Below are positions 22,153-30,317 of a DNA stretch of 64,000 nucleotides, in pieces. Source of the DNA: Trigonopsis variabilis. Its lineage: Eukaryota; Ascomycota; Trigonopsidomycetes; Trigonopsidales; Trigonopsidaceae. The translations under genes and the position numbers were made by a program. How positions within the stretch are numbered: the stretch's first letter is position 1; the number at the start of each line of letters is the position of its first letter. A model generated the notes under the pieces. It searched no databases and was not told where the DNA came from. It saw only the letters and a list, made by a program, of their open reading frames with translations. The stretch covers positions 744,001 to 808,000 of the forward strand of contig PPXM03000002.1 in the NCBI GenBank assembly GCA_003707065.3. The letters run 5' to 3'.

Positions 22153-25100
22153 TTATGACATATCGTACCTATTCTCCGCTTCCCTCTCTGAGATGGGTGA
22201 AATTGCGTCTTCCAAACCACCAGGATCTTCCAAACCACCAGGATCTTCCGAACCATGGGTATTCACAGGAGCTTCAGAGGCAGGCGCTTCGTTTAAGGCG
22301 TTGATCGCAGCTTCCCGAGAAACGTTATTAATTGATGAGATCTTCCTAAGATATGAGACGCGATAGAATTTGTCAGCCTTGTTAAGCATTTCTTGTCTGA
22401 ACGTAGTACAAATAAATTGACCATCTGCTGATAGACTCTTGATCATGTCAGCGACAGCAACACGATATTGAGTATCCAAGTTTGCATCAATCTCGTCAAA
22501 TAGATAGAAAGGGGCAGGATCACATCTTTGAATCGCAAAGATCAATGCCAACGCGCATAGAGTCTTTTGGCCGCCACTAAGTTGTTCAATCCGCACCTGT
22601 TCGTCGGAGCCAGAGTTGAACGACACTCTTATACTTACTCCGACATAACTTTCAACTGAGTCGCCCTGTTGTTCATCGTCTTCATTATCCGAATCCCATG
22701 CTCTTTGGATAACAAGCTCACCTTTCCCAGCTGGAACAAGCTGTGAGAACAAACGAGTAAACTCGCGTGATACTTGTTTGAAAGTCCTTGTTATGGCTTC
22801 GTCTTTTTGACCATCAAGGACAGAAATCAAATCTGTGATAGCTTGCTTTGATTTGGTTAGTTCATCAACACGATCCTTTAAGACCTTTTGTTCGCGAGTG
22901 AACTTGTCAAATAACTGCGCTGACCGTTTGTTTATGTATCCAAACCCATTCAATTTACCAGATGTTTTCTTCAGTCTCCTGTTAAGGGTACCGGCGTCCA
23001 GCTGACCCAGTTCATCAAATGTCTCATCAGCAATTGCTCCTAATCCTTTAATCTTAGTTTTGAGAGCCTCCTTGCGATCATTCAAGAAGCCAATTCTGGC
23101 CATAGCTTGTTCCAAATGGTGTTTTCGACTCTCAACTTGTAAAGCATCGTGCTCTTGTAAATCTAGCAAAGAGGTCATCGCAGTTCCTATCTCGTCTTTC
23201 TCGCTCAGAAGTTGTGATTTCTTTGATTCGATTTTATCTATCTTCTCCGTGATATTTCTCAGTTTTTGGTTCTGAGAAGCCAACTCCTCGTCTACCTGAT
23301 CCAATGTCTCTTGACCCTGAGCAATTACCCTGAATTTCTGAGAGTTTAGTTCATCTCGTCGAGGAAAGAGGCTATCTCGTAAGAATGAGTTATGGATTCT
23401 TATTTTCTCTTCTAACTCGATCCGCTTTTGGCAAAGATTAGTATATCGTTCCCGATAGCGTGATAGATCTTCTGTCGTTTTGTCTAATAACTCAAGTTCT
23501 TTGTGATCAATATCAGTATTGAATGGTGATGAAAGCTCCTTAATATGAGACTCTTTCTGTTCCTGAAGGTTTTTCAACGTTTCCTGTGCAGCATGAAGGC
23601 TTTGTATTTTCAATTGAGATTGACTTGCCAATGATGTCAGTATATTTGAGTCGCTTTGTATCTCCTCCGATATTCGCATATACTGATCATTGACTTTTCG
23701 TTCTTCGCTTTCAGCTTTGTGTAATAGATTGATCCACTCGGTAACCTTTTGGTTGGCAACTTCCAGCTTTTTTTCCACTTCTGATATATGTATTTCGGTT
23801 TCTTGAATTTGAGTCTTCAATCCAGTGATCTTCTCAACTGCATCCAGCCGAAGTTCGCTGGAGTTTATGTATCCACCACTCAGGAGGCCTTTTTTATCGA
23901 CTCTGTCGCCAGTCAGCGTAATGGCACTAAGTTCGTTCTCTCGGGCTAGAAGAGCTCCGGATTCTAAATCCTGGCAGACAATAACTTTACCAAAGACCTG
24001 TTGAAGTGCTTTTTCGTACTTTTGGTCATAAGTGAGCTTGGATATTAGCGGCATTGCTTGACTGATATTGGGATATCTTGATAGAGGGGGTTTTATTCTG
24101 TTTAAAGGCATAAACGTCAGCCTTCCTGCTTGTTCTTTGACCAGAATATCCATGATTTTGGATGCGGTCTGATCAGTGTCAACGACAATGTGGAACAGAC
24201 TATTGCCCGCAACGACATCAGTGCAACTCATGAAGGGTTTATCGGCGGCGAAAAGGCTATACAAAGGACCATAGACACCTTTGATCTCATATTGACGCAC
24301 AATGCGGTCTAAATTCTTCAACCCTTGGCTCTGATATCGATCAATTCTATTCATCAATACTCTTTCAAAATGATTCAGAGACTCATTTAGCTCTCCCAGC
24401 TCATGTCTATAGACTTCTTGATCTCTCCATAGCCCTTTTCTGTTATCATCTTCTTCTTGTCGACTTTTCCTGTTAGAGAACTGCTGATTTTTGATTCTTT
24501 GCAGATCTTTCTGGAGAGCTTCCAAAATCTGTCTATTCTGTTCTGTTTTCTGTAATTTTTCACTCTCCAGTCGGCCGCAATTCTCGTAATCCAGTTCGAT
24601 TTCGTGACATATCTTGCTTTGTTCTAAAATTGCACGATCAAGATCTTCAACCTCCTTTGAAAGCCACATATCTCGCTCAGTTTGGCTTTTGAATTGCTTG
24701 TTTCTTCCTTGCTTATTCGATAATTGCTCAATTAGAAGCTGTGCCTCGGTCACTCTATTTCGTTCTTGCTCTTGCTTTGCAGTAATTTCTTCAAACGCTG
24801 GTTGCAATTTACCAATTTCTTGCTCATGACGAGATATCTGTGCCATAATTTCCTTCAGTTCTCGTTCACGATTAAGGCTCATTTCTTTCTCCTGAAGGAT
24901 CCCATCTTGCAGCTCCTTCTGTTTGACTTCTAATTCGGCTTTCATATTAAGTAATGATCTCCGTTCCTCTTGTAATTCCTTAAGAGTTCCATCGTACTGT
25001 CCTGCACGACGATCAATTCGTTGTAATTCTTGACCGTATTGACTAATCTTTTCATCTCGCTCGTCGTATTGGGTCAGAATAGAATTATTCTCATGCACTA

Positions 25101-25877
25101 TATCAGCTCGATCGCCTTCAAGTGTATTCAAACTGCGATCGATATCCTCTAGTTCACGCTGCATCGTAATATATTCGATCGATCGGTGTTCCCTATCCAG
25201 CTTTTGATATTCATTCCACGTCTCTTTCTCCTTATCGAGTTCGTTCAAGCGCTCATTGATATCTTCCAATAAATTCTCCACTTTTTCTTGTTGATCAATC
25301 GTCTCCTTCATGACTCGCATAGTTTCTTTCCTCCGTTCAACATACACATGTGTGCCAGCCACTTCCTTCAATACATTCAATCGCTCACTATCACTTGCAT
25401 TCGTAAGATGGGTGATTTGACCTTGAGGAACAATATAAAACGGGTTCGAGCGTGAGAACCCAGCACTCTCGAGAAGATTGATAACCTCAGTTTTGGACGC
25501 GGGTTTCCTATCTATTAAAAAGTCATCTGAGTTATGCCCAATTGTGCGCCGTAGTATGAGTTCTGGCTTGCCAGTGGGAAACCGGCTATCTGAATTATCG
25601 AAAGTAATCTCAACATAGAAGCTTATAATGTTGCCTCCTGATCCGTCGTGTATTAGTGCCTGCCTCATCTGCTCATCAAGATGACTATAAGCATCGCTTA
25701 AAAGACATTGAATGGCCGCAAAGAAATTGGACTTTCCCGATCCATTGGTCCCAACGATCACGTTAAAATGAGGACTAAGCTCATTGACCACTGCCTTATG
25801 TCTATAGGATTTAAATCCATCTATCACGATCTATTTATTAGCTGCTTTTTCTTTCCACTTACCTGTTTGATATACAT
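22153..25877 (-). CDS. SMC3: Cohesin subunit Smc3
   Basis: ATPase arm of cohesin, which holds sister chromatids together and forms loops. Two exons (5-codon MYIKQ exon; intron 25831-25862, 32 nt) give 1230 aa, the usual length. Walker A is GTNGSGKSNFF; two coiled coils flank the hinge (YGPLYSLFAADKPFMSC through TLTGDRVDKKGLLSGGY); the C-terminal head has LSGGQKTLCALALIFAIQ and Walker B FYLFDEIDANLDTQYR. SMC3-specific blocks (NLLESAGFSRSNPFYIVPQG) separate it from SMC1. Unusually, the paired Lys acetylated by Eco1 (K105/K106 in human) are Asn105 and Ser106 in the sequence RRTIGHNSDDF. The tail carries a short GGLEDP duplication. Confidence 0.97.
22209..22254. repeat. 18-bp tandem duplication inside the SMC3 3' end
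   Basis: The unit CTTCCAAACCACCAGGAT occurs at 22209-22226 and again at 22227-22244, with a partial third copy after it. On the coding strand this makes a repeated EDPGGL peptide in the disordered C-terminal tail. Confidence 0.85.
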
Positions 25878-27481: not shown

Positions 27482-27565
27482 GCGGGATTAGCTCACCTGG
27501 GAGAGCGTCAGACTGAAGCGTCAAGTGAAATCTGGAGGTACTGTGTTCGAGCCACAGATCTCGCA
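27482..27565 (+). tRNA. tRNA-Phe(GAA) with an 11-nt intron
   Basis: The acceptor stem GCGGGAT pairs with ATCTCGC with one G-T wobble, followed by discriminator A. The D arm is GCTC...GAGC, the anticodon arm TCAGA-CTGAAGA-TCTGG with anticodon GAA, and the T arm CTGTG-TTCGAGC-CACAG. An 11-nt intron (CGTCAAGTGAA) sits one base 3' of the anticodon, the canonical nuclear tRNA intron position. Removing it leaves 73 nt. The internal B box GTTCGAGCC is intact. Confidence 0.96.
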
Positions 27566-27872: not shown

Positions 27873-30317
27873 CTAAAGAGAGCGAGGAAGATGAGGAGGA
27901 TCTAAGGGGTCAAGAAGATTCGGATTAACGTAAGTAAGTCCTCGCTCTCTGATCTCGTCAAGGGTCTGAGAAGACGATCTCGTGCGGAGGGGCTGGCGAA
28001 CAGCGCGGAGAGCAATAAATTTGGAGAGAGGAGCATAATGCTTATGAAAGTCCCACATAAAGATCAGAGTGAGGATGGGAAGAGGAGTTAAGAAGGAGGC
28101 TAGATAATAGGCACGCTGTAGGGCCAAGGTTCCAGCCATGGTCAACTGGAAGAAAATAAGGCCCATTGCAACCCTGAAGAAAATGACGGGCCAAGAACGT
28201 CCAGTCGAATGATGATAGTGTTCCATTGCATATATAAGCTGGTATTTGTAAACCAGATAACCCAACAGAAAGTAGACGAAGCCCGCAGCCAGCACTTTCG
28301 TGGATAGAACACTATATATGAGGCAAAGATTCAGAGTTAGAATGGGTATAGGAAGCCAGATCCCAAAGTTAAATCGAGGTGGACGTTTCCTAACCAGATG
28401 ATTAGGATTATACCGAGCTCGTGACCAAATCAGAGTAAAAGGTACTTTGAAAAGGTTACCAATATCTAATAGCCTAAAAGGAAACATCCCCAGCCCTTGG
28501 AGAATGATAAGATCGACATAAAATAACGATAAATCTCGGATGGAACTAGCGAGAACATAAGCTATTTTGGTTGTGTCTTTAAGAAATGAAAGATAATTCG
28601 AAGCCGTTCTGGCCACCGTCAAGACTAAGAATAAGTTGAAAAACACGTAAAAGTAATTCTTCTCGATTACGGATAACTCAACATCACCCCAAGAGATGTA
28701 ACCCTGAAGACAGGATAAGTAGTCGTTAATATAGGGGACAGCCACGTTGAGGAGAGAAAACAAAACAGTAGGCAAGAAACCAGCCACCAAAGCGAGAAGT
28801 AACGGTGATGATTCCAGAGCTCTACCTAGAGCTGGCCAAAACTTCTTGATTGTTTCCAAATTGAGAAGAGTAGAAACGTAAGTTACCGGAAAGACAAGAG
28901 CAACTGCAATGAGTGAGACCAAGAACGTGATAAGCCAAGCGCGCAAGTAGCGATGTCTTCTAGAAATATAAAAATTGCGCCAGACAACATCTTGCGGAGA
29001 TGGAGCCAAGTGAGCAATTAGAACATTTGGACTAGGGTCGAGAATCGCTTGAGAGGCCATCTGTGCGCTAGCTACACTGTCCATGGTAACAAAAGCACTA
29101 TCGGTGGGAAGGAAGCCATCATCACGGTGTTCAATGATATCGTCGTCTAGGCGCTGAAGAAGCTCATAGTAGTAATCAATAGCATCGACCTGCCCTCCAA
29201 ACAAACCAAAAGGGCCCAAGCCGACTTTTGGGCGTAGACTGGCATTTGAGTCATCATGAATTAAACTAGAATCGATGACTAGGCGATCACGTTCGGTATC
29301 GTCGTCATCGCTTATATTGGCTTCTATTTCATGAGGAAAGGGCAGTTCCGACTCTGAAAAAGTCGAACGACCCGCCTTCTTCAGACGGGTCTGGTAAAGG
29401 ATCCATGCGTTTTCCAATCTCTTTATGATATCTTTTCGCTTATCTAGCAAAGCGTCAAAATCTCCCCAATATCGGCAGATGCTCACAGTCGTGACGGAGC
29501 CAACTTTAAGTCTGGTAATATGATCCCTAAGAGCTTCCTCGCTGCGAAGCTCGCGAGGGACGCCAGATAGTCTAAAAGTTCGGTCAGTTACAGAATATTG
29601 GCTTCCAAGGTACTCCTGTCTGGTTTGGACAATTTTCTTAGTTTGGCGCAGCAGGAAGTAAGCAGTCAATCCAGTGAAGAAATAGATAAAGACAACATAT
29701 GTCCAGAGATAAGGAGGATATTGGCCAGAGGCATCGTCGTCGCCGTCATGATCCTTGTAAGGATCAATAGCCAATAGACCTCCCCGATCGGGATTAATAA
29801 AGGTAAGTGTGCTATTACCATTGTTATCACCCTGATCAAAGTCACCAGTGTAATGGTATCTAATTGGACTGATGATTGTACCGGCGAAGAATGTCAGTAC
29901 GCCCAAGAGATAGGTAGCCATTTTGAAGAACTGCAGGAACACATAGGCGTCAAGTCCTGAAAACTCGAGAACTTGCTCATCTGTAATATTCAACACAACG
30001 GGAATCCAGCCAAATAGCGAGGACGGCAATTTAGGCAAGTCAGGGATCTGAAAACTTCGGCGAGCGTACACTAACTTGAGTTTCGGACGGAGTGCACAGA
30101 AAATCAGGAAACTGGTCAGTCCAATGAATAATGCAATAGATAGCTGAGTCTTTATGACAGGGGGATTTGCAGTTCGAGGATCAGGAGGTAAATCATCCTC
30201 GTCTCTTGATATTAGATCCAGGATATTCATGTTGCTACGCGTCCTGTTGCGGTGCAGCTGTACAAATGGAGGACTAACTACGCCTGACCACCCACGTCGG
30301 TTAGACTGCTCATCCAT
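27873..30317 (-). CDS. Csc1/TMEM63 (DUF221) osmosensitive cation channel
   Basis: Eukaryotic osmosensitive, mechanically gated channel of the OSCA/TMEM63 family. One exon, 814 aa. The first span (LSIALFIGLTSFLIFCALRP) is followed by YARRSFQIPDLPKLPSSLFGWIP, spans two and three, a long cytosolic loop with an RNA-recognition-like fold (FRLSGVPRELRSEEALRDHI, then SAFVTMDSVASAQMASQ), the DVVWRNFYISRRHRYLRAW block, and seven or eight further spans (including FFNLFLVLTVARTASNYLSF). The family hallmark order is complete. Membrane location (plasma membrane or internal) cannot be decided; several fungal paralogues exist. Confidence 0.93.
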   Translation of the reverse strand: MDEQSNRRGWSGVVSPPFVQLHRNRTRSNMNILDLISRDEDDLPPDPRTANPPVIKTQLSIALFIGLTSFLIFCALRPKLKLVYARRSFQIPDLPKLPSSLFGWIPVVLNITDEQVLEFSGLDAYVFLQFFKMATYLLGVLTFFAGTIISPIRYHYTGDFDQGDNNGNSTLTFINPDRGGLLAIDPYKDHDGDDDASGQYPPYLWTYVVFIYFFTGLTAYFLLRQTKKIVQTRQEYLGSQYSVTDRTFRLSGVPRELRSEEALRDHITRLKVGSVTTVSICRYWGDFDALLDKRKDIIKRLENAWILYQTRLKKAGRSTFSESELPFPHEIEANISDDDDTERDRLVIDSSLIHDDSNASLRPKVGLGPFGLFGGQVDAIDYYYELLQRLDDDIIEHRDDGFLPTDSAFVTMDSVASAQMASQAILDPSPNVLIAHLAPSPQDVVWRNFYISRRHRYLRAWLITFLVSLIAVALVFPVTYVSTLLNLETIKKFWPALGRALESSPLLLALVAGFLPTVLFSLLNVAVPYINDYLSCLQGYISWGDVELSVIEKNYFYVFFNLFLVLTVARTASNYLSFLKDTTKIAYVLASSIRDLSLFYVDLIILQGLGMFPFRLLDIGNLFKVPFTLIWSRARYNPNHLVRKRPPRFNFGIWLPIPILTLNLCLIYSVLSTKVLAAGFVYFLLGYLVYKYQLIYAMEHYHHSTGRSWPVIFFRVAMGLIFFQLTMAGTLALQRAYYLASFLTPLPILTLIFMWDFHKHYAPLSKFIALRAVRQPLRTRSSSQTLDEIRERGLTYVNPNLLDPLDPPHLPRSL

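Follow-up and report, generated by a model that had tools for sequence, protein, structure and literature searches.

Asn-Ser in place of the Eco1-acetylated lysine pair in the Smc3 of Trigonopsis variabilis

The SMC3 gene and its acetylation loop

The window, a 64,000-nucleotide stretch of the Trigonopsis variabilis genome (contig PPXM03000002.1, positions 744,001 to 808,000), carries the SMC3 gene on its minus strand at positions 22153-25877. The gene encodes 1230 aa in two exons joined by a predicted splice. Exon 1 (25863..25877, minus strand; ATGTATATCAAACAG) supplies the peptide MYIKQ, and exon 2 (22153..25830, minus strand) carries residues 6-1230 and the stop, 1225 codons, in an open frame of 1224 aa. 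A putative 32-nt intron of the form GTAAGT...CTAATAAATAG, ending in TAG, lies between codons 5 and 6 (25831..25862, minus strand) and was called because splicing there restores the MYIKQIVIDGFKSY start. This intron is unusually short, with CTAATAA near the acceptor. The next large open frame upstream, ~2 kb off, is a CSC1/RSN1-type calcium-dependent channel gene (27873-30317, minus strand). Positions 27482-27565 of the plus strand likely hold an intron-containing tRNA-Phe(GAA), recognised by eye; neither ARAGORN in bacterial mode nor Rfam at the gathering score gave any hit in the window.

The initial annotation described an Smc3 that looks functional apart from one loop, and the Walker A, LSGGQ, Walker B and hinge elements are indeed all present. 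Walker A reads GTNGSGKS (residues 32-39; 25729..25752, minus strand), the ABC signature LSGGQ spans residues 1089-1093 (22567..22581, minus strand), and Walker B was read by eye as FYLFDEID. Scripted patterns for Walker B and the hinge GG found no match in the protein; Pfam matched both SMC_N and the hinge. The nearest solved structures are the Smc3 proteins of S. pombe, human and S. cerevisiae, the best match being S. pombe Smc3 (6yuf_C) at E 3.9e-247. Full or head chains of Smc3 range from 3.9e-247 to 9.7e-106 and hinge-only Smc3 chains from 1.3e-34 to 1.9e-31, whereas non-Smc3 structures are far weaker, with best values of 3.1e-63 for Smc2, 1e-34 for Smc4 and 3.2e-29 for Smc1. The T. variabilis protein resembles S. 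pombe and S. cerevisiae Smc3 (6yuf_C, 7ogt_B) in length, head, signature and hinge, and differs from them by Asn-Ser for Lys-Lys (KK), Y109F and A76F.

The loop that distinguishes this protein covers residues 99-114 (RRTIGHNSDDFLIDRK; 25504..25551, minus strand) and reads RRTIGHNSDDF. At the place of the Eco1-acetylated Lys-Lys, the codons AAC TCA (25528..25533, minus strand; TGAGTT on the plus strand) encode Asn105-Ser106. The substitution had been proposed from the initial reading, together with human K105/K106 numbering and an ungapped alignment, and all three points hold: the numbering matches given the 1230-aa model with exon 1 and the putative intron, and phmmer placed no gap through the loop against S. 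pombe and human Smc3. In the S. cerevisiae chain, seven additional residues lie ~10 positions upstream of the loop and none within it. Four sites in the loop that are invariant in human, the two yeasts and 119/119 fungi have changed (K105N, K106S, Y109F and L111I), and D107 is kept. A nearby basic residue is gone too, R58 having become Glu: residues 57-58 are Asp-Glu (25672..25677, minus strand), in contrast to K57-R58 in S. cerevisiae and R57-P58 in human, and R58 is present in 117/119 fungi. Yeast K57 is a reported DNA contact (PMC7492086). Within residues 93-125 the closest lysines are at 93, 114 and 118, the latter two common to 119/119 fungi. A change from KK to Asn-Ser needs at least three base changes, one for the first lysine and two for the second; a read error at 25528-25533 is unlikely, because these changes cause no frameshift in the 1224-aa open frame.

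Conservation of the lysine pair and placement of its loss

The lysine pair is present in 120/120 Smc3 homologues, these being the best 120 of 3075 with E <= 0.001. A simple pattern recovered it in 118 of them, and the remaining two, P0001 and P0062, read SKKDEY and LKKEEY. This set is mostly Pezizomycotina, for which reason human, S. pombe and S. cerevisiae were added, and identity to T. variabilis Smc3 over residues 1-420 is at most 49% in all 120. In our searches of the open literature we came across no natural Smc3 in which KK is missing. The T. variabilis protein is ordinary in its descent, but the one feature needed for its acetylation is absent.

Two measures of divergence put this loss in context. 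We defined 70 head positions (within residues 8-207) as invariant in human, S. pombe and S. cerevisiae and in at least 117/119 fungi, P0001 having been dropped, and 14 of the 70 are changed in T. variabilis, K105 and K106 among them. The probability that two named sites both belong to such a set of 14 is 0.038, so the number of changed sites alone makes the loss no more than mildly unusual. Stronger evidence comes from the kind of change: K105N and K106S belong to the roughly five of the 14 that are non-conservative by our own classing, most of the changes being conservative. The second measure used positions at which at least 95% of 97 Smc3 references, mostly Pezizomycotina, share one residue. 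The T. variabilis N lobe has diverged as a whole, with 54/171 of these positions changed, compared with 65/165 in S. cerevisiae, 47/171 in human and 20/171 in S. pombe. KK is absent only from T. variabilis among these four proteins, even though S. cerevisiae is the more diverged. An acceleration of the N lobe unique to T. variabilis was considered, given an N- to C-lobe ratio of 1.6 against 0.40-0.99 in 20 comparisons, many of them near-copies; we do not claim it, because the S. cerevisiae N lobe, taken without its C lobe, is further off.

The best RPB2 matches of T. variabilis are 83-86% identical, and the named ones are early-branching budding yeasts. In RPB2 trees the species branches after Lipomycetes, close to Tortispora and to the Sugiyamaella-Wickerhamiella group, and the AU test does not reject its grouping with Tortispora alone (p-AU 0.173). 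Since Lipomycetes and S. cerevisiae both carry KK in Smc3, the pair was probably lost on the T. variabilis branch or jointly with relatives outside our sampling.

A search of the genome (11.35 Mb, 15 contigs) gave 28 first-look SMC_N candidates, 13 of which were scored and correspond to Smc1-6, Rad50 and one ABC transporter, as named by us from N-terminal sequence and, for Smc1, also by alignment to Smc1 chains. The initial annotation had raised a second Smc3 copy as a point to check, and the 13 scored matches among the 28 candidates include none. Rad21_Rec8_N matches lie at three loci (G000 C6:95150, C2:1098866 and C2:1181254); the two on C2 adjoin open frames with similar C-termini and are possibly two Rec8-like kleisins.

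Eco1 and the release and loading partners

The suggestion that Eco1, Wapl or Pds5 might have been lost is contradicted by the genome, in which all three genes were found, as was Scc3. Eco1 is the single genome match at E <= 1 and an intact 333-aa frame, in which Pfam recognises the ESCO zinc finger (40.3 bits, cut-off 27) and Acetyltransf_13 (42 bits, cut-off 22.8). The protein is highly divergent: of 2369 candidates retrieved by shared five-residue words, a single one is related at E <= 0.01, and phmmer against the ESCO1 chain 5t53_A reached an E value of 3.9e-4 only. It shares with known Eco1/ESCO proteins (5t53, 6sp0, 5n1u/5n22) the CCHH zinc finger, ISR within GISR, SQP and the C-terminal extension, and it keeps the RRKGLA CoA-binding motif; no canonical PIP box was found by pattern.

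The active site differs from those enzymes. For mouse Esco2, PMC7300003 reports that E491, S527 and S566 do not vary across Esco homologues, that yeast has Gln at the place of D567, and that an enzyme carrying both changes of E491Q;D567A is inactive; counted along chain 6sp0, these four residues sit at IAE, GIS and SD. The T. variabilis residue at the E491 equivalent (xEco2 E594) is non-acidic in all four alignments. In the best register it is T243, given by a three-way MAFFT alignment and by phmmer against xEco2 and anchored by the shared [R/D]EAY; the alternatives are L241 (pairwise MAFFT with the database homologue P0121) and K232 (phmmer with 6sp0, low confidence). D245-E246, two and three residues past T243, might serve as a replacement base. 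Both proton-relay serines are kept (S268 and S306, mouse S527 and S566), and the position of D567, the second proposed base, is Q307, Gln as in yeast. The Esco hairpin Trp, reported to contact Smc3 D107 and Y109 (PMC5349539), was not seen in the T. variabilis alignment, whereas P0121 has both the Glu and the Trp; the loop past SQP is altered as well. Eco1 is probably under selection, because the 333-aa frame is intact and retains the two catalytic serines, the zinc finger and the SQP motif also found in yeast. A rewired Eco1, the other possibility raised at the outset, gains support, no register obtained having an acidic residue at the reportedly invariant Glu and the hairpin Trp not being seen.

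Among the partners in release, Pds5 matched strongly, its main piece scoring 653 bits, and its loop reads APNAP where AP[D/E]AP is expected. The Wapl motif is TYGKHRSMR, as against TYxxxR[T/S]PhiL, with Arg rather than Leu at the last position (S. cerevisiae YGKKRTIL). Both motifs are reported to be needed for release and are predicted to bind each other (PMC10656103). The Scc3-binding residues of Wapl, TDDFEYLL, are kept. Loss of the Scc3 face or of the Scc2 acidic patch was ruled out: Scc3 retains D189 and E202 (alignment to 6h8q_A), and the Scc2 acidic patch is DDEED, aligned to Ashbya EDEED. In yeast the Scc2 acidic loops face unacetylated KK, and the Scc3 face is predicted to lie opposite it (PMC7492086, PMC10656103). 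In the T. variabilis Scc3 (L024:548-3481), yeast E186-D187, adjoining the kept D189, is replaced by Arg-Thr, perhaps a local charge adjustment opposite the altered Smc3 loop. Compensation of the T1117I/V type in Smc1 was also ruled out, since T. variabilis has Met at this position, the residue also present in S. pombe (6yuf_A) and in the Smc1 of 6qpq/6qpw.

Hos1 is the reported Smc3 deacetylase (PMC5678280). Histone-deacetylase matches lie at four loci: one is closest to Rpd3, one is another class I enzyme, one is closest to Hos3, and one is called Hda1-like from its 803-aa frame only. By these assignments none of the four is evidently Hos1-like. S. pombe is not known to have Hos1, and its absence would be weak evidence.

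Interpretation of the altered loop

Among eukaryotes, acetylation of cohesin is regarded as an almost universal means of control. By descent the T. variabilis protein is an Smc3, yet on the evidence of its loop it is not an acetyl-switch Smc3. From the residues, the gene inventory and the motif states we infer that acetylation at this site may be lost, with consequences for release and for the role of Eco1. The reading we prefer, at a probability of about 0.47 and for this one genome, is that the Eco1-Smc3 acetylation cycle has been abandoned, with Smc3 fixed in a neutral, acetyl-like state and Eco1 now a pseudoenzyme or acting on another substrate. Asn-Ser would make positions 105/106 permanently neutral, removing both charges as in the acetylated state, and newly loaded cohesin would resist Wapl without being acetylated. 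The Eco1 that persists would be a divergent protein in which the zinc finger and the CoA-binding motif remain but the proposed catalytic bases seem to be missing, and the Pds5-Wapl contact would be altered too. Scc2 would have to stimulate cohesin in the absence of the K113-E822 salt bridge, a requirement that also applies wherever K112Q K113Q (QQ) mutants are viable. The genome that lost KK also has an altered Eco1, Pds5 loop and Wapl motif.

Published yeast alleles bear on the acetyl-like part of this reading, which the initial annotation had already put forward. The smc3 alleles K113N, K113T and QQ are reported to abolish Wapl release, which acetylation also blocks (PMC10656103), and the T. 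variabilis loop resembles these laboratory alleles in that the positive charge is gone and Asn is among the release-dead substitutions at K113. It differs from them in being natural and fixed, with Asn at the first position and Ser at the second. The permanently acetylated-like state is to this extent a fair inference. The difficulty lies in loading: K113Q alone is reported as lethal in S. cerevisiae, where it is rescued strongly by Smc1 T1117I and weakly by T1117V (PMC10153460), and T. variabilis lacks these known suppressors. As a working mimic Asn-Ser would need compensation, given that lethality, and none was found. K112Q is viable and bypasses Eco1 in S. cerevisiae (PMC13123822), and QQ is non-lethal in S. 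pombe and human cells (PMC7492086), so that what Asn-Ser means would depend on the genetic background. Given compensating mutations, S. cerevisiae is able to survive while its cohesin stays locked in a single state (PMC10153460); our searches turned up no natural example. Taken as a whole, the interpretation in the initial annotation is partly supported.

The preserved partners speak against an abandoned switch. If the loop were dead, relaxation would be expected, though the Scc2 patch, Scc3 D189/E202 and Wapl TDDFEYLL are all kept; the retained Scc2 and Scc3 faces, along with the open Eco1 frame, count as genuine evidence against a complete loss of the system. The same retention favours a continuing release reaction that is controlled without KK, through the Scc3 face, the Scc2 acidic patch and DNA, the loop having drifted while regulation stayed unchanged. 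The general divergence of the N lobe and the survival of QQ mutants in S. pombe and human cells (PMC7492086) fit such drift, but S. cerevisiae keeps KK while more diverged at the same positions, and the Eco1, Pds5 and Wapl changes accompany the loss in the same genome; we consider this account unlikely. Also unlikely, if slightly less so, is an Eco1 that still acts as an acetyltransferase through a changed active site and now modifies a different lysine, elsewhere on Smc3 or on Scc1, Pds5 or PCNA. Its open frame, zinc finger, GISR, RRKGLA, both catalytic serines and C-terminal extension would all be explained, yeast Eco1 already has Gln at the D567 position (PMC7300003), and D245-E246 could substitute for the Glu. 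Against a moved target stand the four of four alignments with nothing acidic opposite that Glu, the absent hairpin Trp, and the fact that two of the nearest Smc3 lysines, 114 and 118, are shared by all 119 fungi.

The abandoned cycle can also be framed as dismantled at both ends, the lysines and the enzyme active site, with Eco1 kept in a non-catalytic capacity and cohesion achieved without an Eco1-type modification, possibly with S106 phosphorylation as a substitute; we hold this tentatively, as a possibility with the odds against it. That a phosphoserine switch at S106 has outright replaced the acetyl switch is very unlikely. With Asp-Asp directly after it at the loop tip, S106 could plausibly be recognised as an acidic kinase site, and a phosphate would shift the charge beyond what an acetyl group does, but the classic CK2 consensus has an acidic residue at +3, and S106 has none there. 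An artefact, whether assembly error, decayed gene or hidden intact SMC3 copy, is barely credible: 15 of the 28 first-look SMC_N candidates lie outside the scored set, but only one Smc3 occurs among the 13 scored, and the change comprises at least three substitutions without a frameshift in an open frame that has the head motifs and hinge.

What cells gain from a cycle of cohesin acetylation is still an open question. If the abandonment of that cycle in T. variabilis is true, the species would be a natural test of which cohesin functions, among cohesion, loops and repair, need the switch, and it would also probe a non-catalytic role of Eco1 and an Scc2-driven ATPase that works without the lysine contact.
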